Source: Thermoflexibacter ruber
GTDB lineage: Bacteria > Bacteroidota > Bacteroidia > Cytophagales > Thermoflexibacteraceae
Length of the DNA: 64,000 nucleotides
Assembly (NCBI RefSeq): GCF_900113045.1
Contig: NZ_FONY01000031.1
Span: 1 to 64,000 of the forward strand
Reading direction: 5' to 3'
Shown here: in pieces, positions 53,941-64,000 of the stretch
How the letters are laid out: each line of letters opens with the position of its first letter
How positions within the stretch are numbered: position 1 is the first letter of the stretch
The notes under the pieces: generated by a model
The model's database searches: none
What the model was told of the DNA's origin: nothing
The model's input: only the letters and a program-made list of their open reading frames with translations
Position numbers and translations under genes: made by a program

Positions 53941-54177
53941 CGTCAGTTGTAAATGAAGCTCGTGTATCTTACAAATTTATCGGATTTATCTTTTTAGCCC
54001 AAATCAAACAGTAAGAAAGTATAGCTTTAAGGCAAAATTAACCTTCCATTTGCAAAATCAGAAATTTTTATCTATTTTTAAGATTCAAATAATAAGTGCT
54101 TTATGATACAATCAGAGCCAATTATTAATATTCCTAATCCTGATTAACTAACTATAAAACCTTTCAAAACCCTGATA

Positions 54178-56685
54178 ATGATGATGAAAAAATTACTACT
54201 TGCATTGGCAACTTGCTGCCTATTCTTACAAATTTATGCCCAGCCCAATAGCACTAAATCTGCCAGCCAAATCCAAATGGATTTGAAAAAGCTCACTGTC
54301 TTAGGCTCTGTGCTGTATATTGCGGCACACCCTGACGATGAGAACACACGATTGATAGCTTACATGGCAAAGCATGAGTGCTATGAAACAGCTTACTTGG
54401 CTTTGACGCGTGGTGATGGGGGACAGAATTTGATAGGGAGCGAGCAGGGTGAACTCTTAGGTTTGATTCGAACCCAAGAACTTTTAGCAGCCAGAGCATT
54501 AGACGGCGGAAGGCAGTTTTTCACCAGAGCCAATGATTTTGGTTTTTCTAAAAATCCCAACGAAACACTCAGGATTTGGGACAAGAATCAGGTAGTTGCT
54601 GACATGGTTTGGGTCATTCGCAAGTGGAAACCCGATGTGCTGATTACTCGATTCCCTACCGACGGAAGCGGGGGACATGGGCATCATACTTCTTCTGCCC
54701 TTTTAGCCGAAGAGGTTTTCAAATACGCCTCCGACCCTACTATGTTTCCTGAGCAACTCCAATACGTAACCACTTGGCAACCAAAGCGATTGTACTGGAA
54801 CAAGTGGATAAGAGATAGCAAAGAAGATTTGAGCAAGTACCTCAAAGTCGATACGGGAATTTTCAATCCTTTGCTTGGACAGTCTTATTTCGACTTGGCA
54901 ATGGAAAGTCGCACTCAGCATAAAAGTCAGGGTTTTGGCTCAGGGAAAATCAGAGGAAAGCAACCCGAATACTTGCAATACATCATGGGCGACTCGGCAA
55001 AAGAGCATATCATGGAAGGAGTAAACACGACTTGGGGTCGCATCAAAGGAGGAGAAGTCGTAGGGAATCTGCTCAACGAAGCCTACAAAAACTTCAGTCC
55101 TTTGAATCCCTCTTTGGTCTTGCCAAGATTGATTGCTGCCCGCAAAGAAATAGCCAATCTACTTGCGAAAACCAATGACCCTACAGAAATGTATTGGCTG
55201 AAAACCAAAAATGCAGAATTAGACGAAGCAATAAAAAACTGTGCAGGTATATGGTTTGAAATCACAGCCAACGACTATACGGCAAGCCCAGGAGATTCTG
55301 TCAATGCCACTTTGAGGATAATCAATCGCTCTAATGCTCACGTAAAACTCAAAAAAATAGACCTTTCTTTTGACGAAGAAAGTAACCAGCCCGAAGGAAG
55401 TGAAAGCAAAGCGGTAGATTATAATTTAGCAGAAAATACCTTGTTAGAAATCAATCGCAAAGTAGTATTGAGCAGAAAATCTGAGATTTCACAACCCTAT
55501 TGGCTCAGAAAACCTGTCATCAAAGGAATGTACCAAGTAGATGAACAAGAAATGATAGGTCTGCCAGAAAAACCCCAAGAGCAGTTTGCAAGTATAGATT
55601 TGGACATTGAGGGCGAAGTTTTTAGCTATACTACGCCTTTGATGTATAAATGGACGCACAGAGTAGATGGGGAGCTATACCGCAGTTTTGAAGTAGTCCC
55701 CGAGGTCATGGCAAATATCAAATTTCCTACCTACATTTTTACAGAAAATTTGAGCAAAGAAGTAGCTGTAACCCTCAAAGCAGGGAAAAAGAATGCAAGC
55801 GGCACTTTGAGCTTAGACTTGCCACAAGGTTGGAGAAGCGAACCGCAACAGGTGAACTTTAACTTGAGCAAGAAAGATGAAGAACTATTGGTAAGTTTTA
55901 AAGTATTCCCACCCAAAAATGCCAGCAATGCTACTGCCAAAGTAAAAATCAACGGGGCTGATGCTGTGGGCATTACACGCTTGGAGTATGACCATATTCC
56001 TTACCAAGTTATTTTTCCAAGAGCCGAATTTAAGTTGGTAAAATTAGACGTAATCAACAAGGCAAAAAATGTGGGCTTTTACGTTTCCGAAGCGGGAGAT
56101 GAAACCCCTAATGCCTTGCGTCAGTTGGGCTGTCAGGTGGTAGAAATTACTGATGACAACTTTGAAGCCTTAGATTTGAGCCAGTTTGATGCCATAGTAA
56201 CGGGGGTAAGAGCCTACAACACCCGCCAAAGACTCAAATACCACAATCCTAAAATGCTCGAATACGTAAAAAATGGAGGCGTTTTGATAGTGCAGTACAA
56301 TGTAAGTTTTGGCTTAGTAACCAATGAGATAGGTCCTTATCCTTTTAAAATTTCTCGTGATAGAGTTACTGAAGAAGATGCCCTCATTGCTTTCAACAAG
56401 GAAACCCCCTTGCTCAATTTCCCCAATAAGATTACCAAAGAAGACTTTGACGGCTGGGTGCAGGAGCGTGGCTTGTACTTTGCATCAGATTGGGATAGCA
56501 AGTACGACACCCCTTTCATTACGCAGGATACAGGCGAGCAGGCGAAAAAAGGAATCCAAATCTCAGCCCAATACGGCAAAGGAGTATTCATTTATACAGG
56601 ATTTTCTTGGTTTAGGCAGTTGCCTGCGGGCGTGTCGGGAGCATATCGCTTGTTTGCCAATATGATTTCGGCAGGAAAGAAATAA
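54178..56685 (+). CDS. Exported PIG-L deacetylase with large C-terminal region
   Basis: An 835-residue exported protein. Signal peptide 'MMMKKLLLALATCCLFLQIY' plus AQ. Residues about 45-230 are a PIG-L/LmbE zinc deacetylase: 'LYIAAHPDDENTRLIAYMAK' (A-H-P-D-D-E zinc motif), 'LALTRGDGGQNLIGSEQGEL' and 'PTDGSGGHGHHTSSALLAEE' (third ligand His). Beta-sandwich regions follow at about 355-590 ('NDYTASPGDSVNATLRIINR'), and the last 200 residues resemble a ThuA/glutamine-amidotransferase-like fold ('FYVSEAGDETPNALRQLGCQ', 'VKNGGVLIVQYNVSFG'). PIG-L enzymes remove N-acetyl groups from amino sugars; the substrate is unknown. Confidence 0.88.
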   Translation: MMMKKLLLALATCCLFLQIYAQPNSTKSASQIQMDLKKLTVLGSVLYIAAHPDDENTRLIAYMAKHECYETAYLALTRGDGGQNLIGSEQGELLGLIRTQELLAARALDGGRQFFTRANDFGFSKNPNETLRIWDKNQVVADMVWVIRKWKPDVLITRFPTDGSGGHGHHTSSALLAEEVFKYASDPTMFPEQLQYVTTWQPKRLYWNKWIRDSKEDLSKYLKVDTGIFNPLLGQSYFDLAMESRTQHKSQGFGSGKIRGKQPEYLQYIMGDSAKEHIMEGVNTTWGRIKGGEVVGNLLNEAYKNFSPLNPSLVLPRLIAARKEIANLLAKTNDPTEMYWLKTKNAELDEAIKNCAGIWFEITANDYTASPGDSVNATLRIINRSNAHVKLKKIDLSFDEESNQPEGSESKAVDYNLAENTLLEINRKVVLSRKSEISQPYWLRKPVIKGMYQVDEQEMIGLPEKPQEQFASIDLDIEGEVFSYTTPLMYKWTHRVDGELYRSFEVVPEVMANIKFPTYIFTENLSKEVAVTLKAGKKNASGTLSLDLPQGWRSEPQQVNFNLSKKDEELLVSFKVFPPKNASNATAKVKINGADAVGITRLEYDHIPYQVIFPRAEFKLVKLDVINKAKNVGFYVSEAGDETPNALRQLGCQVVEITDDNFEALDLSQFDAIVTGVRAYNTRQRLKYHNPKMLEYVKNGGVLIVQYNVSFGLVTNEIGPYPFKISRDRVTEEDALIAFNKETPLLNFPNKITKEDFDGWVQERGLYFASDWDSKYDTPFITQDTGEQAKKGIQISAQYGKGVFIYTGFSWFRQLPAGVSGAYRLFANMISAGKK

Positions 56686-56693
56686 TAACTTAC

Positions 56694-56730
56694 TTATCGT
56701 TTCAAACTTGGGGAAACTTTGAAACGATAA
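56694..56730. repeat. Stem-loop shared at the 3' end of the T9SS cargo genes
   Basis: TTATCGTTTCAAA (56694-56706) and TTTGAAACGATAA (56718-56730) with an 11-nt loop, directly after the stop of the leftward gene. Variants follow the other two T9SS genes at 58828-58850 (AGCGTTTCAAA/TTTGAAACGCT) and 62258-62286 (CGTTTCAAA/TTTGAAACG). It is copied along with the cargo 3' end and probably acts as a terminator or RNA-stabilising end. Confidence 0.65.
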
Positions 56731-56736
56731 AAAACA

Positions 56737-58011
56737 CTAATTCGTACTTGCTGATTTACTTATGATTATCTGATGTTTCTCTATTTCCTTCCCATACAAG
56801 ATGTGCAGGTAGTAAGTGCCTTCTTTCAGTCCTTTGACATCAAAAGAAATCTTCTTTTCCTTGTTTTGGTTTTTGCCCTCTCTGACTACTTTGCCGTCTT
56901 GGTCTAAGAGCTTTGCCTCAAAGTCTACCTTAGCGGCAATTGTCAAATTCTTGTTTTCTTCGGTAGGGACTGCCGTAATATCTAAAATATCGGAGGTAGG
57001 ATTGGGACTATACACAAAGCGGAAGCCTGAGTTGCTGCATACATTGACAGTAAACATTCTCCAATCGCTCCAAAGCCCACAAATATTTCTTACCCTTACC
57101 CGCATATTGGCAATGCCACCTACACAGCCATTCGAGAGATACGCAGTAGCAGTAATGCCAGACTGAGAAACATAGACGCTACTTGATAGCGATTGCCATT
57201 CTACTTGGTCTATGTTTTGAGAATTAGGAGTAGAGGAAATGAAAGAACCGTTGTAGATGACAGCAAGGTTTATCCCTGAGCCAGTAGATATATTCCACGC
57301 TTGCTCTACTTTTATATCTTCACCCACAGTGCCAGTAATTAAATTCACTACTTGTCCTGTATTTTTAACATTCCATTGCAGATTAAAATAGGGGTCTGAG
57401 GTAGCTGTTTTGATAAAAAGATGATAATTGGGGTGAGCAAATTCAAACTTACCTGTTTCTAAAAACTGATTAGATAAATCTAATGTATGTGTTGATGAGT
57501 GTTTGTTAATAGTCAGAATATATACTAAAGGGTCATACTCATACTGCACAATTTTTTCAATGTTTTTAGCCTTAGCCAATTGTTCTAAAAAAGCCAATGA
57601 AGTTGTCTTTTTCAACTTAACAATCAACTCATTGGTAAGTCCACCCAAAGACGTTCCCTCTGGACCTACTAATACAGGGCTGGCATAAAGTACACTTTCT
57701 TCCTTTAATAAATCTTTTACTAATCTTATAGCATCATCAGCTGTTTTGTCTTCTTTCAAAGATAATATTCTGGTATGAGGCATCTCATCATTGCTGGCTA
57801 AAAGTCCATTTAAAGAAATTTTAGCTAAGGTTTGTTTTTTTCTATCTTCAGTAAGATTAGGCACAAACCATACTAATACTTTTTCGGGAGAAACAGTCAG
57901 TATTGTTTTTTGTTTATTGGAAGAATAAACAGCATATTCTTGAGAATAAATACATTGGCTAAAAGAAACAAATAAGATAATGCTTGTGATTAACTTTTTC
58001 ATGGATTTCAT
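56737..58011 (-). CDS. Subtilisin-type precursor lacking its catalytic core, with T9SS sorting domain
   Basis: A 424-residue exported protein. Signal peptide near the N-terminus ('LITSIILFVSFSQCIYSQ'), then an S8 pro-region ('LAKISLNGLLASNDEMPHTR', 'GLTNELIVKLKKTTSLAFLE', 'FEFAHPNYHLFIKTATSDPY') and the usual start of a subtilisin domain ('FNLQWNVKNTGQ', 'EDIKVEQAWNISTGSGINLA'). At 'GINLAVI' the next residue should be the catalytic Asp; instead the sequence reads YNGSFISS and continues as the cargo module also found in the two neighbouring T9SS genes. His and Ser are absent too. The C-terminus is a T9SS type A sorting domain ('FVYSPNPTSDILDITAVP', 'GLKEGTYYLHILYGKEIEKH'). It follows a lipoprotein gene by 12 nt. 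Confidence 0.8.
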   Translation of the reverse strand: MKSMKKLITSIILFVSFSQCIYSQEYAVYSSNKQKTILTVSPEKVLVWFVPNLTEDRKKQTLAKISLNGLLASNDEMPHTRILSLKEDKTADDAIRLVKDLLKEESVLYASPVLVGPEGTSLGGLTNELIVKLKKTTSLAFLEQLAKAKNIEKIVQYEYDPLVYILTINKHSSTHTLDLSNQFLETGKFEFAHPNYHLFIKTATSDPYFNLQWNVKNTGQVVNLITGTVGEDIKVEQAWNISTGSGINLAVIYNGSFISSTPNSQNIDQVEWQSLSSSVYVSQSGITATAYLSNGCVGGIANMRVRVRNICGLWSDWRMFTVNVCSNSGFRFVYSPNPTSDILDITAVPTEENKNLTIAAKVDFEAKLLDQDGKVVREGKNQNKEKKISFDVKGLKEGTYYLHILYGKEIEKHQIIISKSASTN

Positions 58012-58023
58012 AAATGACGTTTT

Positions 58024-58605
58024 TTAAAAGAATTTTTGATAAATTTTGTATTTGATTTTTGAATGAGAAGGTATTTTGGGGACAAGAGCAAAATAGTTAG
58101 CATTAGGAACTATGATAGAAGTCGCACCTAAAACAAACTCTATCGTAAAAACATAATCATCACAATACTTAATGAGTTTCATACTTTTAACGCGAGGAGG
58201 TCCCACACAAAAAACAACTCCTGTCAGCAAACTATATTTTTCAAAATCTATTTTGGGTAGAGAAACTACTTGCCCGTTGCTTAGAGTAGGACATTGATTT
58301 ACTAACTTATGATATTCTTCTTCGGTATTTATAATATAACTCTTATGCGTTCCACTATCATAAGTGCCATCTTTGACTGTGCTATCTGAGTAGCCACACT
58401 TTGGTAAGCTGTCATTTTCGTATAAAAACTTAACTACTACTTCACTGCTATCTTTGCAATTAGGATTAGGAATGATTATTTCCGCTTTTGTATCGTCTTG
58501 GGAGGAAGATTCTTTTTCTGGCACGACTTCCTGCTCTCCTTTCCCACAAGCCCATGCTGCAAACAGGGCAGTGGCAAATAAAAAATATGCGATTAATCTT
58601 TTCAT
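58024..58605 (-). CDS. Lipoprotein with PrcB-like domain
   Basis: A 193-residue lipoprotein (MKRLIAYFLFATALFAAWAC, lipobox A-W-A-C). The mature half reads 'SYIINTEEEYHKLVNQCPTL', 'LPKIDFEKYSLLTGVVFCVG', 'KLIKYCDDYVFTIEFVLGAT' and 'NANYFALVPKIPSHSKIKYK', a beta pattern like the PrcB domain of the Treponema dentilisin complex, where PrcB is a lipoprotein needed to assemble a subtilisin-type protease. The match is by eye and not certain. The next gene, 12 nt downstream, encodes a subtilisin-type precursor, which fits that role. The leader before this gene is duplicated before the other lipoprotein gene. Confidence 0.6.
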   Translation of the reverse strand: MKRLIAYFLFATALFAAWACGKGEQEVVPEKESSSQDDTKAEIIIPNPNCKDSSEVVVKFLYENDSLPKCGYSDSTVKDGTYDSGTHKSYIINTEEEYHKLVNQCPTLSNGQVVSLPKIDFEKYSLLTGVVFCVGPPRVKSMKLIKYCDDYVFTIEFVLGATSIIVPNANYFALVPKIPSHSKIKYKIYQKFF

Positions 58606-58819
58606 AAAAATTGAGGTTTAAAATTTTACTTTTGCCTACTTTCTTTCAGGCGTTTCGGCGGTAGCCTTGGGTGGCTACAATAATATAGCATTTTTTCCGA
58701 GATTCCCACCACTTTGGCGGAGATTTTTTCCTTGAGAGTGCAAGCCACTCATAGCCAAAAAGTTGCAAAGAGGTTTTTTAGCATATTTTAATAGCTTTTA
58801 AGATTAATTAACTATTTTT
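58594..58819. repeat. Duplicated 226-bp lipoprotein-gene leader, copy 1
   Basis: Matches 61595-61820 at a constant offset of 3001 bp with no gaps and about seven substitutions (near 97% identity by eye). It spans the first four codons of the lipoprotein gene and all of the upstream region, including a GTAGCC/GGCTAC hairpin around 58650-58668. Confidence 0.9.
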
Positions 58820-58858
58820 CAGAAACAAGCGTTTCAAACTTTGAAACGCTAAAAAACA

Positions 58859-59440
58859 CTAATTCGTACTTACTGATTTACTTATGATTATCTGATGCTT
58901 TTCCAGTTCCTTTCCATGCAAGATGTGCAGGTAGTAAGTCCCTTCTTTCAGTCCTTTGACATCAAAAGAAAGCTTATTTTCCTTGTTTTGGTTTTTGCCT
59001 TCTCTGACTACCTTGCCGTCTTGGTCTAAGAGCTTTGCCTCAAAGTCTATCTCAGTGGCTATTGTGAAGTCCTTATTTTCTTCGGTTGGCACTGCGGTAA
59101 TGGTCAGTACCTCAGAGGTGGGATTAGGACTGTAAATGAAGCGAAAGCCACTACATACATTCACATAGAATACATACCACTCACTCCAACCTGCACAGTT
59201 GCGTATTCTTACTCTCAACTGTGCAGGAAGCCCAGATAAACTATTTGCATAAGCGGTTGCTGTAACGCCACCATTAATTTGATTACCAACTATATATACA
59301 TTACCAGAGGTAGGTGCCCACTCTATCTGCGTGATTCCAAAAGGAAGGGGATAACTAACATTGGCACTTAAATTTACCCCATTATATATCAGCCCAAGAT
59401 TCAAACCAGCAGAACAAACGGTCATGCCTTGTCCTGAAAC
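58859..59440. repeat. Duplicated T9SS cargo 3' module, copy A
   Basis: About 580 bp coding for the last 190 residues of the protease. It is nearly identical to 62297-62880; protein identity is very high, from 'ISVSGQGMTVCSAG' to the stop. A more diverged version ends the gene at 56737. Confidence 0.85.
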
Positions 59441-60862
59441 TGAGATAAGAGAAGAAGAGGGTAGATTAGGATTAGTAGTTGATGCTGAGCCTGCCAATAT
59501 TGTATTCGTATATTGAGGGTTGATATTATCAGGGTCAAGCCAATCTTTCAAACGGGTAGAAGGAGTACCACCACCATTCCATGATTGGTCAAAACGTCCA
59601 TAAATAGAGGTACCTAAATTCTGGCAATTTGGATTAGAACTCACAGGGACTCCTGCAAGCTGTCCCACTATTCTTCTGTTCCCATCAAACAGAGCGGAGC
59701 CAGAAGAACCTGATTCTGTGAAGCCTGATGTCCAACTAATTGAAGTTGACCATGAATTTTGAGAACTGAAGTTCCCAAAGTTAATTTTCATAACATCCCC
59801 CCTTGGATGGTGAATACCCGTAAATGTTCCATTTGAGGGATTATCTCTTGTCCAACCTAAAAAATGAATCCCTCTCGCATTTAAGGACGCTATTGTAAAT
59901 CCCTGATTTGATAAGTTTAATTCTAATAATGCAAAATCTGAATCAAACCATAAAGAACGCAATGTACAGCCATTAAGTGTAAAAATATTTGACAAAGGTT
60001 CTGGCTCATTTGTGTTATTGCATTGTGTTCTTCTATAACGAAATCGGAAGACACCAAAAGACTGTAAGTTTTGTTGAATGTCAAATACAGCATGATAAGC
60101 AGTTAAGAAAAAAGGTTTCCATGTTTGACAAACATCGTTAATTAAAGCCCCTGTAAAGATTCCCCCGCCTGCTACAACCCTTGCGACAGCACTACCTTCA
60201 TTTGCCCAACTACTTTCACAAGCAATATCTCTTTGACAGGAGGCAGATGTATTGTAGTTCTCTGTTCTACCATTAGAAATACTTTGTTTAGCTTCACTTA
60301 AAGCATCTTTATAGCCATGCACTACTTTGGCAATGCTCAATTGCGTTTTACCTTTTTGAGAGGTGGGTTCAAAAAGTTCCAAAATGCTCATATCTCCACT
60401 TATTAAATCCGTGCCAAGTGTATTATTTTTATTATTTACAATAGAAGTAATAGGTCCCATGACTGTAGAGCTATCGCGATTGTAAATGAGTAAATTTGCT
60501 CCTTCTGGCAAGCGGAATTTATCAAAAGCAAGGTTGATAGACAACGCTTTTGGAGAATGAATAACCAATTTCCACACTCTGCCTTTGGGCGTATTAAACC
60601 AAGTGCCTGAATTGCCGAGATTCAAGTTTACATCTATCTCTTTCCCAAATACAAAAACACCCTTGGTTTCCCCTTTTAATGCCTTTTCTTTTTCCTCTTC
60701 AGCCAGAATTGTGGCAACATCTACTGTGGGCATAGTTTCAGTAGCAACATTGGCAAGCGTGTTTTTATGCAATTGTTTAGGTTTAAAACCTTGAATATCA
60801 ATCTGTGCTTTTGCTGAAAAAACAGCAAAAAGGAGTACCATTATCAATGAAAATAGTTTCAT
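58859..60862 (-). CDS. Lysyl-endopeptidase-like serine protease with T9SS sorting domain
   Basis: A 667-residue exported trypsin-fold protease. Signal peptide 'MKLFSLIMVLLFAVFSAKAQ', a pro-region to about 210, and a catalytic domain at about 215-460 with His in 'PFFLTAYHAVFDIQQN', Asp in 'LWFDSDFALLELNLSNQG' and Ser in 'FTESGSSGSALFDGNRRIVG', all intact, in the style of Achromobacter lysyl endopeptidases. The last 200 residues are the cargo module ('GQGMTVCSAGLNLGLIYNGV') plus T9SS type A domain ('FIYSPNPTSEVLTITAVP', 'GLKEGTYYLHILHGKELEKH'). It would be released or attached at the cell surface. It lies 42 nt behind a lipoprotein gene. Confidence 0.88.
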   Translation of the reverse strand: MKLFSLIMVLLFAVFSAKAQIDIQGFKPKQLHKNTLANVATETMPTVDVATILAEEEKEKALKGETKGVFVFGKEIDVNLNLGNSGTWFNTPKGRVWKLVIHSPKALSINLAFDKFRLPEGANLLIYNRDSSTVMGPITSIVNNKNNTLGTDLISGDMSILELFEPTSQKGKTQLSIAKVVHGYKDALSEAKQSISNGRTENYNTSASCQRDIACESSWANEGSAVARVVAGGGIFTGALINDVCQTWKPFFLTAYHAVFDIQQNLQSFGVFRFRYRRTQCNNTNEPEPLSNIFTLNGCTLRSLWFDSDFALLELNLSNQGFTIASLNARGIHFLGWTRDNPSNGTFTGIHHPRGDVMKINFGNFSSQNSWSTSISWTSGFTESGSSGSALFDGNRRIVGQLAGVPVSSNPNCQNLGTSIYGRFDQSWNGGGTPSTRLKDWLDPDNINPQYTNTILAGSASTTNPNLPSSSLISVSGQGMTVCSAGLNLGLIYNGVNLSANVSYPLPFGITQIEWAPTSGNVYIVGNQINGGVTATAYANSLSGLPAQLRVRIRNCAGWSEWYVFYVNVCSGFRFIYSPNPTSEVLTITAVPTEENKDFTIATEIDFEAKLLDQDGKVVREGKNQNKENKLSFDVKGLKEGTYYLHILHGKELEKHQIIISKSVSTN

Positions 60863-60904
60863 GATTTGTTATTTTTTTAGATTAAATAATTGATTAAAAA
60901 TTAA

Positions 60905-61606
60905 TTAATTGACTTGAAAATTGAGTGTTGCTTTAAATAATTTTATTTCTCTTGACGTTTCTTTCCAACCTACAATAACCCCCTCTTTGAAAACATTTTC
61001 ACCCTTGATTAGAGGAAAATTGATATAAAACTCTACTTGATAATTACCCTTTTGAATTGGTTTATCAGGGCTGCTTAGGTAAGACCAGTAGCAAGGTGAA
61101 CTTTTAATGAAAGAGCCTAACATTTGAATGTATTGCCTATCATCAAAGGAACTCTTACTCGTTCCAAGCCAACTTGTGGCTACTTTGATAGTATCTTGAG
61201 GTTTAATAGACCAATTAAATACTTGATGGCAAAATTCACCTGTTTGCTGTTTTTGCCCAACTCTTAACCTATTATTGCCATTTAATTTATAGACTTTTAA
61301 CAAATCGGAAGAATCAAAAGACTCATCTTGCCATGCCCAGTCAAGTGCATCTTTCGTATTATTAATCATAAGTAATTGAAATAGCACATCTTCTCCTTCC
61401 TTGAAACAATTGGTTACTTGCCCTTTAGAGTTCATGAGGCGAAATTCAAAGGAGATTTGCCCTTGATTCTCTTTGTAAGAGGCTTTTTCAGGACATAAAG
61501 AGGTATTTTCGGCAGGTACTATTTCTTCCTTGCTTTCTTCCCTACTGCAAGTCCATGCAGTACATACCGCAAAGACAAGCCCTAAATACACAACTAATCT
61601 TTTCAT
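60905..61606 (-). CDS. Lipoprotein with possible BsuPI-like inhibitor domain
   Basis: A 233-residue lipoprotein (MKRLVVYLGLVFAVCTAWTC, lipobox T-W-T-C; the signal peptide resembles that of the 58024 gene). The mature part is a predicted beta-sandwich: 'FEFRLMNSKGQVTNCFKEGE', 'DVLFQLLMINNTKDALDWAW', 'LLKVYKLNGNNRLRVGQKQQ', 'FNWSIKPQDTIKVATSWLGT', 'KGNYQVEFYINFPLIKGENV'. This order of strands, with an N-N-T turn and an 'IKPQD' turn, is like BsuPI-type proteinase inhibitors or Ig-like carrier domains; the match is weak. It precedes the lysyl-endopeptidase-like gene and shares its leader with the PrcB-like gene. Confidence 0.55.
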   Translation of the reverse strand: MKRLVVYLGLVFAVCTAWTCSREESKEEIVPAENTSLCPEKASYKENQGQISFEFRLMNSKGQVTNCFKEGEDVLFQLLMINNTKDALDWAWQDESFDSSDLLKVYKLNGNNRLRVGQKQQTGEFCHQVFNWSIKPQDTIKVATSWLGTSKSSFDDRQYIQMLGSFIKSSPCYWSYLSSPDKPIQKGNYQVEFYINFPLIKGENVFKEGVIVGWKETSREIKLFKATLNFQVN

Positions 61607-61820
61607 AAAAATTGAGGTTTAAAATTTTACTTTTGCCTACTTGCTTTCAGGCGTTTCGGCGGTAGCCTTGGGTGGCTACAATAATATAGCATTTTTTCCG
61701 ATATTCCCACCACTTTGGCGGAGATTTTTTCCTTGAGAGTGCAAACCACTCATAGCCAAAAAGTTACAAAGAGATTTTTTAGCGTATTTTAATAGTTTTT
61801 AAGATTAATTAACTATTTTT
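61595..61820. repeat. Duplicated 226-bp lipoprotein-gene leader, copy 2
   Basis: See copy at 58594-58819. It fills most of the 306-bp gap before the XRE gene. The conservation of non-coding DNA up to the start codon means that regulatory signals were copied too. Confidence 0.9.
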
Positions 61821-61912
61821 TTACTCATTGCAACGCTTATGCCTGTCTTTTCGTACTTGTTTTGTGAAGGATTTTATTGCTTTTTCAGTAAAAATGTTAT
61901 TTTTTTCTTGTT

Positions 61913-62239
61913 ATGGAAATGAAAAATTTAGGCGAGCGTATTCGCCACCTACGCATAGGGAAAGGCTACCCCGTAGAATATATGGCTACTAAACTAAAAA
62001 TGTCTTGCTCAGGATACTCTAAAATAGAAAGAGGGGAAAGTGAACTGACCTTAAGGCGACTAAAAGCCATTGCAGAGGTCTTAGGTTGTTGTTGTACTAT
62101 GCTTCTGGAAGAGGAACAGGCTGAACTTGATAAGATAAGTTTAGCTCACTTAGCAAGCAAGATAGACAAAATAGAAACTGCTTTGGCGATTATAGTCAAG
62201 GAAATAAATACGCTGAAGAGGCAGAGCAAACAAAACTAA
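61913..62239 (+). CDS. XRE-family regulator with C-terminal coiled coil
   Basis: A 108-residue protein. Residues about 5-65 are a lambda-repressor-like helix-turn-helix ('NLGERIRHLRIGKGYPVEYM', 'ATKLKMSCSGYSKIERGESE', 'LTLRRLKAIAEVLGCCCTML'). Residues 68-103 form a predicted coiled coil ('LASKIDKIETALAIIVKEIN'). The ATG at 61913 or 61919 is possible. It is divergent from the leader of the 60905 lipoprotein gene and convergent with the T9SS gene at 62297, so it is placed to read the leader region, but this is only positional. Confidence 0.85.
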   Translation: MEMKNLGERIRHLRIGKGYPVEYMATKLKMSCSGYSKIERGESELTLRRLKAIAEVLGCCCTMLLEEEQAELDKISLAHLASKIDKIETALAIIVKEINTLKRQSKQN

Positions 62240-62296
62240 GCAACTGCTGAAAACAAGCGTTTCAAACTTGGGGAAACTTTGAAACGATAAAAAACA

Positions 62297-62880
62297 CTAA
62301 TTCGTACTTGCTGATTTACTTATGATTATCTGATGCTTTTCCAGTTCCTTCCCATACAAGATGTGCAGGTAGTAAGTCCCTGCTTTCAGCCCTTTGACAT
62401 CAAAAGAAAGTTCCTTTTCATTGTCTTGGTTTTTGCTCTCTCTGACTACTTTGCCGTCTTGGTCTAAGAGCTTTGCCTCAAAGTCTATCTCAGTAGCTAT
62501 CGTTAAGTCCTTATTTTCTTCGGTTGGCACTGCGGTAATGGTCAGTACCTCAGAGGTAGGATTAGGGCTATAGACGAAGCGAAAGCCACTACATACATTC
62601 ACATAGAATACATACCATTCACTCCAACCTGTACAGTTGCGTATTCTTGCTCTCAACTGTGCAGGAAGACCAGATAAACTATTGGCATAAGCAGTTGCTG
62701 TAACACCACCATTAATTTGATTACCAACTACATATACATTACCTGAGGTAGGTGCCCACTCTATCTGTGTGATTCCAAAAGGAAGGGGATAACTAACATT
62801 GGTGCTTAAATTTACCCCATTATATATCAGCCCAAGATTCAAACCAGCAGAACAAACGGTCATGCCTTGTCCCGCTACGG
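62297..62880. repeat. Duplicated T9SS cargo 3' module, copy B
   Basis: Near-identical to 58859-59440; see there. Confidence 0.85.
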
Positions 62881-63838
62881 AAATTAAGGCTACACTGGGG
62901 AGTGTGCCAATAGATGATACGGGTATGCTGATGCTATTGCCATTCCCACAAGACGAAGAAACAGCAGTTACTGTAATTGTCCCACTGGCATTTGTGCCTG
63001 AGGGTGGAGCAGTAATAGTAGCTACACTGTTATTAGCTGTAGTTATGACGTTGGAAACTGTGAAGCCATTATTAGCAGACCAAATCATCGAGGTTAGGTT
63101 AGCTCCTGTTACTGTCAATTGCTTACTTTCTCCTGCACAAAAAGGTGGAGGGTATTGGCTCGATGGGACTGCATTGACTACGGGCGTAGGACGGGTAAAA
63201 TTAATACTACAAGTTGATTGTAAGCCAGCGCAATCAACCCTTGTTGCTCTAATAGACACGCTTCCAGAAGAGGGTAAATTCTGAGAGGGGATTACAGTAA
63301 TGCTTGTATTATTACTACTGCTTACAGTCCACCCACTTGGTACTATCCATTGATAATTAGTTGCATTGGCTACTGTAGATGTGGCAAATGTAATAGGTGT
63401 TGTACCACAAGGAACACTTATTGAGCTATTACAGTTGTAATTTGTTCCATTTACAGAAATTCCGCTAAACGAGCCAATTGTCTTTATGGTAACATCTAAG
63501 GTATATGTCTTTGCTATAGTAGAATTGCATCCACTTCCACTTAAGGTTGCTTCTATCTTCCCAGAAGTACTTGAAGCATTGTTATTCCAAATTACATCAA
63601 CACTTGTTCCACCATTATTAATGGTTGTTTGCCCATTTGTATTTGAAAATGTGCCACCTGTAACTGTCCAAGAAATAGTACAACCAGAAATCCCCGGTGA
63701 ATTTCCAACAGCAACTAAGCTGTAGGGAATAGAATTAGAGGCACATGGGGCAGTCTGACCTTGAATTTGGTATGTTTGTGCATAAAGCACTTTAACCGAA
63801 AAAACAATAAAATGTAAGATTAAAAGAGACTTTTTCAT
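62297..63838 (-). CDS. PKD-like repeat surface protein with T9SS sorting domain
   Basis: A 513-residue exported adhesin-like protein. Signal peptide MKKSLLILHFIVFSVKVLYA plus Q. Residues about 25-310 are three Ig/PKD-like repeats of the Bacteroidota type ('CTISWTVTGGTFSNTNGQTT', 'NATNYQWIVPSGWTVSSSNN', 'NLTSMIWSANNGFTVSNVIT'). Residues about 316-513 repeat the module shared with the 58859 protease, ending with the T9SS type A domain ('FVYSPNPTSEVLTITAVP', 'GLKAGTYYLHILYGKELEKH'). No enzyme domain is present. It is probably a cell-surface structural or binding protein. Confidence 0.85.
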   Translation of the reverse strand: MKKSLLILHFIVFSVKVLYAQTYQIQGQTAPCASNSIPYSLVAVGNSPGISGCTISWTVTGGTFSNTNGQTTINNGGTSVDVIWNNNASSTSGKIEATLSGSGCNSTIAKTYTLDVTIKTIGSFSGISVNGTNYNCNSSISVPCGTTPITFATSTVANATNYQWIVPSGWTVSSSNNTSITVIPSQNLPSSGSVSIRATRVDCAGLQSTCSINFTRPTPVVNAVPSSQYPPPFCAGESKQLTVTGANLTSMIWSANNGFTVSNVITTANNSVATITAPPSGTNASGTITVTAVSSSCGNGNSISIPVSSIGTLPSVALISVAGQGMTVCSAGLNLGLIYNGVNLSTNVSYPLPFGITQIEWAPTSGNVYVVGNQINGGVTATAYANSLSGLPAQLRARIRNCTGWSEWYVFYVNVCSGFRFVYSPNPTSEVLTITAVPTEENKDLTIATEIDFEAKLLDQDGKVVRESKNQDNEKELSFDVKGLKAGTYYLHILYGKELEKHQIIISKSASTN

Positions 63839-64000
63839 AAGATATGTAATTAAGTTATTAAAATTTTAAAATAAAACACTCAAATTAATATTCATTAAAG
63901 GGCTGTATCGCATAATATTCATACTTCCCTGATAAGAATACTCAGATAGTATATCAGGCATTTCTCGCCTTTTATAATTTATGTTTTCTTTGAAATGCTC

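Follow-up and report, generated by a model that had tools for sequence, protein, structure and literature searches.

Why does a gene that starts as an S8 protease break off at the point where its catalytic core should begin, and why does it sit directly behind the gene of a small lipoprotein? The question is raised by two minus-strand genes near the end of a 64,000-nt stretch of contig, which was analysed as a whole and is referred to here as the window. The first encodes a 193-aa lipoprotein and the second, 12 nt further on, is a 424-aa ORF; the coordinates, lengths and gap given for the two genes in an initial annotation of the window agree with its ORF list (Table 1). The locus is probably a lipoprotein and S8 protease pair of the KLIKK/potempin type, in which the protease core was lost in frame by recombination with the tail of a sister gene, and what remains of the protease gene would then be a likely recent casualty.

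Table 1. Features of the lipoprotein-protease array in the window.
Feature	Position	Strand	Evidence or remark
Small lipoprotein, 193 aa	58024..58605	-	ORF; signal peptide, lipobox Cys20, C-terminal domain with IDF motif
Core-less S8 protease gene, 424 aa	56737..58011	-	Signal peptide, S8 pro-region, mature S8 start, Ig-like module, T9SS tail
S8-derived part, codons 1-251 (signal peptide, pro-region, first mature strand)	57259..58011	-	33% identity to C30 S8
Join zone, 24 nt, reads SGINLAVI	57256..57279	-	20/24 match to start of C30 tail
Expected catalytic-Asp codon, TAC (Tyr)	57253-57255	-	Just past join zone
Conversion tract covering Ig-like module, 209 nt	57050..57258	-	Identical to C30 tail; C101 differs at two bases
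T9SS type A sorting domain (Por_Secre_tail)	56764..57006	-	PF18962 E 1.3e-9; TIGR04183 E 2.3e-6
Trypsin-like (S1) T9SS protease, 667 aa, same kind of tail	58859..60862	-	PF13365 E 1.1e-6; PF18962 E 9e-11
Small lipoprotein directly upstream of trypsin-like gene, second pair of array	60905..61606	-	ORF
Third protein with same tail; PKD-like domains	62297..63838	-	PF19408 E 5e-7; PF18962 E 1.7e-10

The mature S8 start of the 424-aa ORF extends over about 48 residues (SDPYFNLQW...AWNISTGSGINLAVI) and then gives way to YNGSF... where the catalytic Asp is due. Residues 202-255 resemble, weakly, the mature N-termini of Deseasin MCP-01 (3vv3, E 0.011) and mirolase (8ehe, E 0.13), and the alignments stop at the Asp-containing VIDTG/VIDDG of these enzymes, where the 424-aa protein has VIYNG. 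An S8 pro-region profile covers the protein over the full profile length (positions 1-248), a match that is partly circular because the window sequence is one of the eight rows of the profile. Independent support for the pro-region comes from a 33% match to an intact gene on contig C30 of the same genome (E 6e-31). The S8-like start claimed in the initial annotation is borne out by these comparisons, and the switch from GINLAVI to YNG at the catalytic Asp, where the neighbouring genes read GLNLGLIYNG, is as it was described there. Within the Asp-His-Ser triad of an S8 subtilase, the Asp position is occupied by Tyr and the His and Ser regions are missing from the 424-aa protein. No S8 domain was found in it by Pfam, in which only the T9SS tail exceeds the cut-off (PF18962, 38.7 bits, cut-off 27); with a sorting domain above the curated cut-off, the protein counts as T9SS cargo. 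Its Ig-like module was called by eye and has no Pfam match.

Separate searches of the genome to which the window belongs (5.5 Mb in 123 contigs), one for the N-terminal part of the protein and one for its tail, found one other protein that has both, a 732-aa S8 protease whose core is intact, whose first 568 residues resemble mirolase (E 1e-38) and whose gene is preceded, after 33 nt, by the gene of a 195-aa lipoprotein. This sister gene lies on two unplaced 3133-bp contigs, C30 and C101, which are two bases apart in sequence and whose ends resemble contigs C58, C66 and C91 in part only. Its tail starts ...SLISVSGQGMTVTQSGLNLAVIYNGSF..., and the window ORF is S8 sequence through SGINLAVI and C30 tail from YNG onward. 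At the place of the join the C30/C101 gene reads SGLNLAVIYNG, a closer parallel than the sequence of the window neighbours.

At the level of single bases, the pattern at the join is a mosaic recombination scar. The window and the C30 tail agree at 19 of 54 nt to the left of the join and at 20 of 24 nt in the join zone (57279-57256), and they are identical over the 209 nt from 57258 to 57050, a tract that overlaps the last 3 nt of the join zone and in which the other two window tails match at only 20-31 of 51-60 positions per block. Past the tract, identity to C30 is 51/60 and 47/60 and then recovers unevenly (54/60, 59/60, 52/60), while the last 33 nt of the ORF match the window paralogues and not C30. 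The simplest account is that ectopic recombination or conversion, entering at the short stretch of similarity, took out the core. The same pattern would result if the shared tract were older and an internal deletion had come after it. Loss of the S8 core by recombination at a short similar stretch, as the initial annotation had proposed, is thus well supported by the 20/24-nt zone and the identical nucleotides that follow it.

The N-terminal part of the window gene does not descend from the C30 gene, with which it shares only 33% identity there. The initial annotation had proposed an intact S8 allele in related genomes as a check; no intact allele of the 424-aa gene was found in its own genome or in two congeners, one of which is only 62% complete, and for this reason the ancestor is inferred. 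The sole close copy of the window gene is on contig C57, which carries a second copy of the pair as a pseudogene, consisting of the later part of the lipoprotein gene and the first 46 protease codons, with 28 differences in 564 nt and a stop at lipoprotein codon 112. This pseudogene indicates that lipoprotein-protease pairs decay in this genome. The remnant (L031, 5249-5860) sits between two ordinary genes.

We propose that an S8 gene was joined at SGINLAVI, just before its catalytic Asp, to SGLNLAVIYNG at the head of a sister tail. Such a recombination would have deleted the catalytic core in frame and imported the identical Ig-like module, events to which the sequence mosaic points. As the layout suggests, the lipoprotein would be lipidated and kept on the cell, where it would restrain the protease or shield against it, and the protease partner would be exported by the T9SS. 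The product of the present gene, if there is one, would be a surface protein that bears an S8 pro-region but has no catalytic activity.

The broken gene is part of a larger array. One kind of tail is common to all three window cargo proteins; Pfam found no protease domain in the third of these proteins (62297..63838). The two lipoprotein genes of the window share an upstream stretch together with the first ~22 nt of the 60905-61606 gene (95% over 237 nt), and for the lipoprotein encoded at 60905-61606 no Pfam family exceeds its cut-off. Several lipoprotein genes are preceded by a stretch that is 79-97% conserved between loci and may be a common promoter or leader; it is found, in window numbering, at 58526-58673, 61506-61674 and 64580-64653 of the window contig, at 2215-2280 of C78, and on C30 and C101, with the first 67-74 nt only at 64580 and on C78. 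Rfam has no match in positions 54000-64000 of the window.

Pairs of this kind have been described in Tannerella forsythia, where all six KLIKK proteases are reported to be preceded by small lipoprotein ORFs that are mutually dissimilar, and where the proteases are outlined as a signal peptide, a pro-fragment, a core, a conserved 30-residue stretch, a variable module and a conserved CTD (PMC4404884). These lipoproteins are the potempins, described as inhibitors of the adjacent downstream protease (PMC7296668). The window shares several properties with this system. S8-like (mirolase) and S1D (miropsins) proteases occur there in one organism, and the window likewise holds S8- and S1-type genes; a small lipoprotein gene lies directly upstream of a secreted protease, at 12 nt in the window and 33 nt on C30; and the order of pro-fragment, stretch A, variable region and CTD recurs in layout, not in sequence, in the 58859, 62297 and C30 tails. 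Potempins include up-and-down barrels that inhibit S8 proteases. The window differs from the KLIKK loci in that stretch A of the 424-aa ORF is reduced to its last part, the S8 core is missing from the downstream gene and intact only in the C30/C101 sister, and the proteins end in KSASTN, KSVSTN or VLVGK and not in Lys-Leu-Ile-Lys-Lys. PDB searches gave no match that ties the window lipoprotein to a potempin. In our analysis the window layout appears to fit KLIKK/potempin pairs better than the Treponema prcB-prcA-prtP operon, because the pair has no third gene and its cargo has a T9SS tail, and we ascribe a putative inhibitor role to the lipoprotein.

The distribution of the pair was followed in relatives. 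The window pro-region was matched in 11 of 59 near relatives, the own genome counted, and in neither of two congeners; the near-relative matches that were examined are the N-termini of long S8 genes, except for one stand-alone lipoprotein (G015). Across the same order, the S8 pro-region profile matches 100 of 390 genomes, a figure that includes many genomes matching the mature-S8 end of the profile only. Searching named genomes gave 55 loci, comprising 41 that were assessed, 3 near a contig end (L167, L170, L179), 4 that were unrecognised automatically (L176, L181, L182, L186) and 7 with a pro-region only (L199-L205). A lipoprotein-like ORF stands directly upstream of 14 of the 41 S8 genes and of 1 of 59 control genes, the latter being other long ORFs of the same loci (Fisher p 8.5e-6). 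The lipoprotein test is a crude pattern: it gave a doubtful positive among the 14 (L180), and by it 27 of the 41 S8 genes have no upstream lipoprotein, including four that have one by eye (L160, L163, L196, L197).

What fills the position upstream of the S8 gene varies. Window-like lipoproteins (P-x-IDF or near) precede S8 genes in Algoriphagus, a Cyclobacteriaceae MAG, Alistipes, a Tannerellaceae MAG and others, at 13-28% identity, and at other loci the position is occupied by a protein that is lipocalin-like by eye or by a stand-alone S8 pro-region; our labels PRC and LIPOCALIN are partly circular, because some of the proteins so labelled also went into the profiles. Members of the lipoprotein family also occur away from S8 genes, at 19 of 22 loci in a count made by eye, the automatic S8 flag having missed three loci with a known S8 gene.

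The initial annotation had called the window lipoprotein PrcB-like and the locus a PrcB-protease pair. A PrcB-like pattern is visible, but PF14343 (PrcB_C) does not match the 193-aa lipoprotein, for which Pfam gives 0 families at E<=1, and it is absent from the families matched by 17 members of the lipoprotein family. NCBIfam likewise gave no PrcB match for the lipoprotein, and a PrcB_C search of the own genome found nothing. Profile comparison by hhalign was more favourable. An alignment of the family (A3; window, C30 and 15 of 22 family loci) scored 95.1% over 33 columns against an alignment of PrcB_C proteins (A4; 7 of the 11 PrcB_C loci of the same order), and a second alignment (A7), which includes the protein of L158, PrcB-like by eye and without a Pfam match, scored 95.9% over 91 columns against A4. 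Two controls scored 6.7% and 15.0% over 8-9 columns at the signal peptide or lipobox, and the hhalign E-values in this analysis apply to a single comparison only. We read the relation between the window lipoprotein and PrcB_C as distant homology and not as membership. Prediction from a single sequence gave a poor structure (mean pLDDT 46); the AF2 model from 11 sequences has a mean pLDDT of 70, is confident only in approximately residues 86-193, and had no match to PDB folds at E<=0.001 (best Z 3.5). PDB sequence searches with the lipoprotein families found nothing. As to the pair, a lipoprotein and a protease do recur together, and the KLIKK/potempin layout suits them better than that of PrcB.

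Pro-regions that lack a protease core are found in other Bacteroidota as well. The protein of L200, one of the seven pro-region-only loci, joins a pro-region to a T9SS tail above the Pfam cut-off, and those of L202 to L204 close with a comparable tail-like part, which in L202 was checked in Pfam and is unmatched; at L185 (25.8 bits) and L154 (23.2 bits) the T9SS-tail match of the core-less pro-region protein stays under the cut-off of 27. In four loci a core-less pro-region lies immediately before an S8 gene, as a lipoprotein in L190 and L198 and as a tailed protein in L185 and L154. The one in L154 (2091-3608, in a Dysgonamonadaceae MAG) has 505 aa, contains two successive S8 pro-regions and ends 29 nt upstream of the S8 gene. 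Short core-less frames ending at profile position 189-217 were found at at least 27 places in at least 25 of the 390 genomes; five of these 27 places have in-frame stops, and of the 11 that were examined one (G256, L088) looks like a broken protease. A lipobox was seen by eye in 8 of 9 short core-less ORFs examined.

Of 20 core-less proteins that were compared, 19 end at profile position 185-201, which is the pro/mature boundary, and one (L185) ends at 223. The window protein reaches 248, and its break is therefore not at the usual domain boundary. Core-less pro-regions are thus a genuine class, but none of the others bears a scar like that of the window protein. A further candidate, that the domain order of the 424-aa protein is that of a stable core-less family, a possibility named in the initial annotation, was rejected: no other frame runs to position 248 without an S8 core among the relatives examined. 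A scan of the genome contigs with the whole 424-aa protein found no relative.

Against this background the alternatives to a broken KLIKK/potempin-type pair can be weighed. It is rather unlikely that the lipoprotein is a true PrcB homologue which, as in dentilisin, anchors and stabilises the protease and does not inhibit it. The high hhalign scores, well above those of the controls, speak for such a role, as does the dentilisin operon of Treponema denticola, in which prcB is reported as the first gene of prcB-prcA-prtP and PrtP as undetected in the absence of PrcB (PMC8167434). In both cases a lipoprotein comes first in an operon with an S8 protease, and there is a remote similarity of profiles. 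The window, however, has only two genes and no Pfam match to PF14343, in the lipoprotein or in its family; its type of protease is T9SS cargo, whereas that of dentilisin is a lipoprotein; and PrcB is described in the dentilisin report as having no homologues outside oral Treponema (PMC8167434). All 11 PrcB_C loci of the same order, moreover, are without an S8 motif ORF within about 1.5 kb. Lipoproteins that are by eye unrelated, lipocalin-like or pro-region-like, fill the same position in relatives, and with several kinds of lipoprotein in one slot, interchangeable inhibitors fit better than one conserved subunit.

For the 424-aa gene itself, the most likely reading is that it was broken recently, in a protease array that recombines, and that the lipoprotein is still paired with it. 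Use of its product already as a pro-domain inhibitor or chaperone for the sister protease is less likely, and we regard it as unlikely that a surface-displayed S8 pro-region here inhibits a sister S8 protease in trans or helps it fold, even though core-less pro-regions recur in Bacteroidota in lipidated form or with a T9SS-type tail, four of them directly upstream of an S8 gene, and a stand-alone propeptide protein (SUB1-ProM) is described as inhibiting SUB1 in Plasmodium (PMC6993865). The window protein shares with SUB1-ProM an S8 pro-region without a protease core, but it retains about 48 mature residues, an Ig-like module and a T9SS tail; it ends inside the first S8 strand, further on than the 20 others, and between its pro-region and the one in the intact sister protease identity is only 33%. 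The join is also recent, as the 209 identical nucleotides indicate, and the open frame of the gene is therefore no sign of selection. Our main reservation concerns the assembly, because the identical tract begins exactly at the join. The true chromosome might hold an intact S8 gene at this place that the assembler skipped by way of the repeated tail; C30 and C101 are nearly identical, have no place in the genome and resemble other contigs at their ends, short contigs may be absent from the assembly, and similar loci misled a Tannerella assembly, the KLIKK loci in the database genome being reported to have held wrong and non-existent ORFs (PMC4404884). We nevertheless consider an artefact very unlikely. 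The sequence immediately left of the join is unique, so the reads should have held the joint of pro-region and tail, unless chimeric reads or gap filling intervened, and the ten S8 matches in the genome (C30 and C101 counted as two) all have an N-terminal sequence of their own, which leaves no orphan core.

A recent loss of the core in frame thus remains our preferred reading, and it adds other Bacteroidota, such as Algoriphagus and Alistipes, to the one oral pathogen in which a layout of protease plus lipoprotein was known, with a lipoprotein slot that is filled by several kinds of protein, core-less protease pro-regions included. The locus offers a snapshot of how a protease can become a potential pro-domain carrier when sister genes with a common tail recombine. 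The initial annotation had suggested a decoy or a pro-domain carrier; a pro-domain role in trans is a possible candidate function of the 424-aa protein, and since core-less pro-regions are recurrent, a function of this product is worth testing. The data also suggest that PrcB-like lipoproteins deserve testing as protease inhibitors. More tentatively, Bacteroidota may use surface-tethered free S8 pro-regions as trans inhibitors or folding helpers that share the operon slot of PrcB-like and lipocalin-like proteins, the window gene being such a carrier born by recombination; we put this forward as a conjecture somewhat short of an even chance. No report of stand-alone propeptides or lipoprotein inhibitors of T9SS subtilisins in Bacteroidota was found in the portion of the open literature consulted.

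Several loci met in the searches may be recorded here. Free-standing S8 pro-regions of 188-246 aa were seen in Bacteroidota at L140-L147, L190 and L198, with a lipobox by eye in all but L143, and L142 has two of them in tandem. The contig of L185 is binned as Treponema, yet its core-less pro-region and S8 gene are of the Bacteroidota kind, perhaps through wrong binning or transfer. In G008, which belongs to the same family as the window genome, an S8 gene starting at position 1501 of L074 has Gly at the catalytic Asp position (AVVGNG) and is paired with a lipoprotein of the same family as that of the window, which makes it another case of lost catalysis next to a lipoprotein of this kind.
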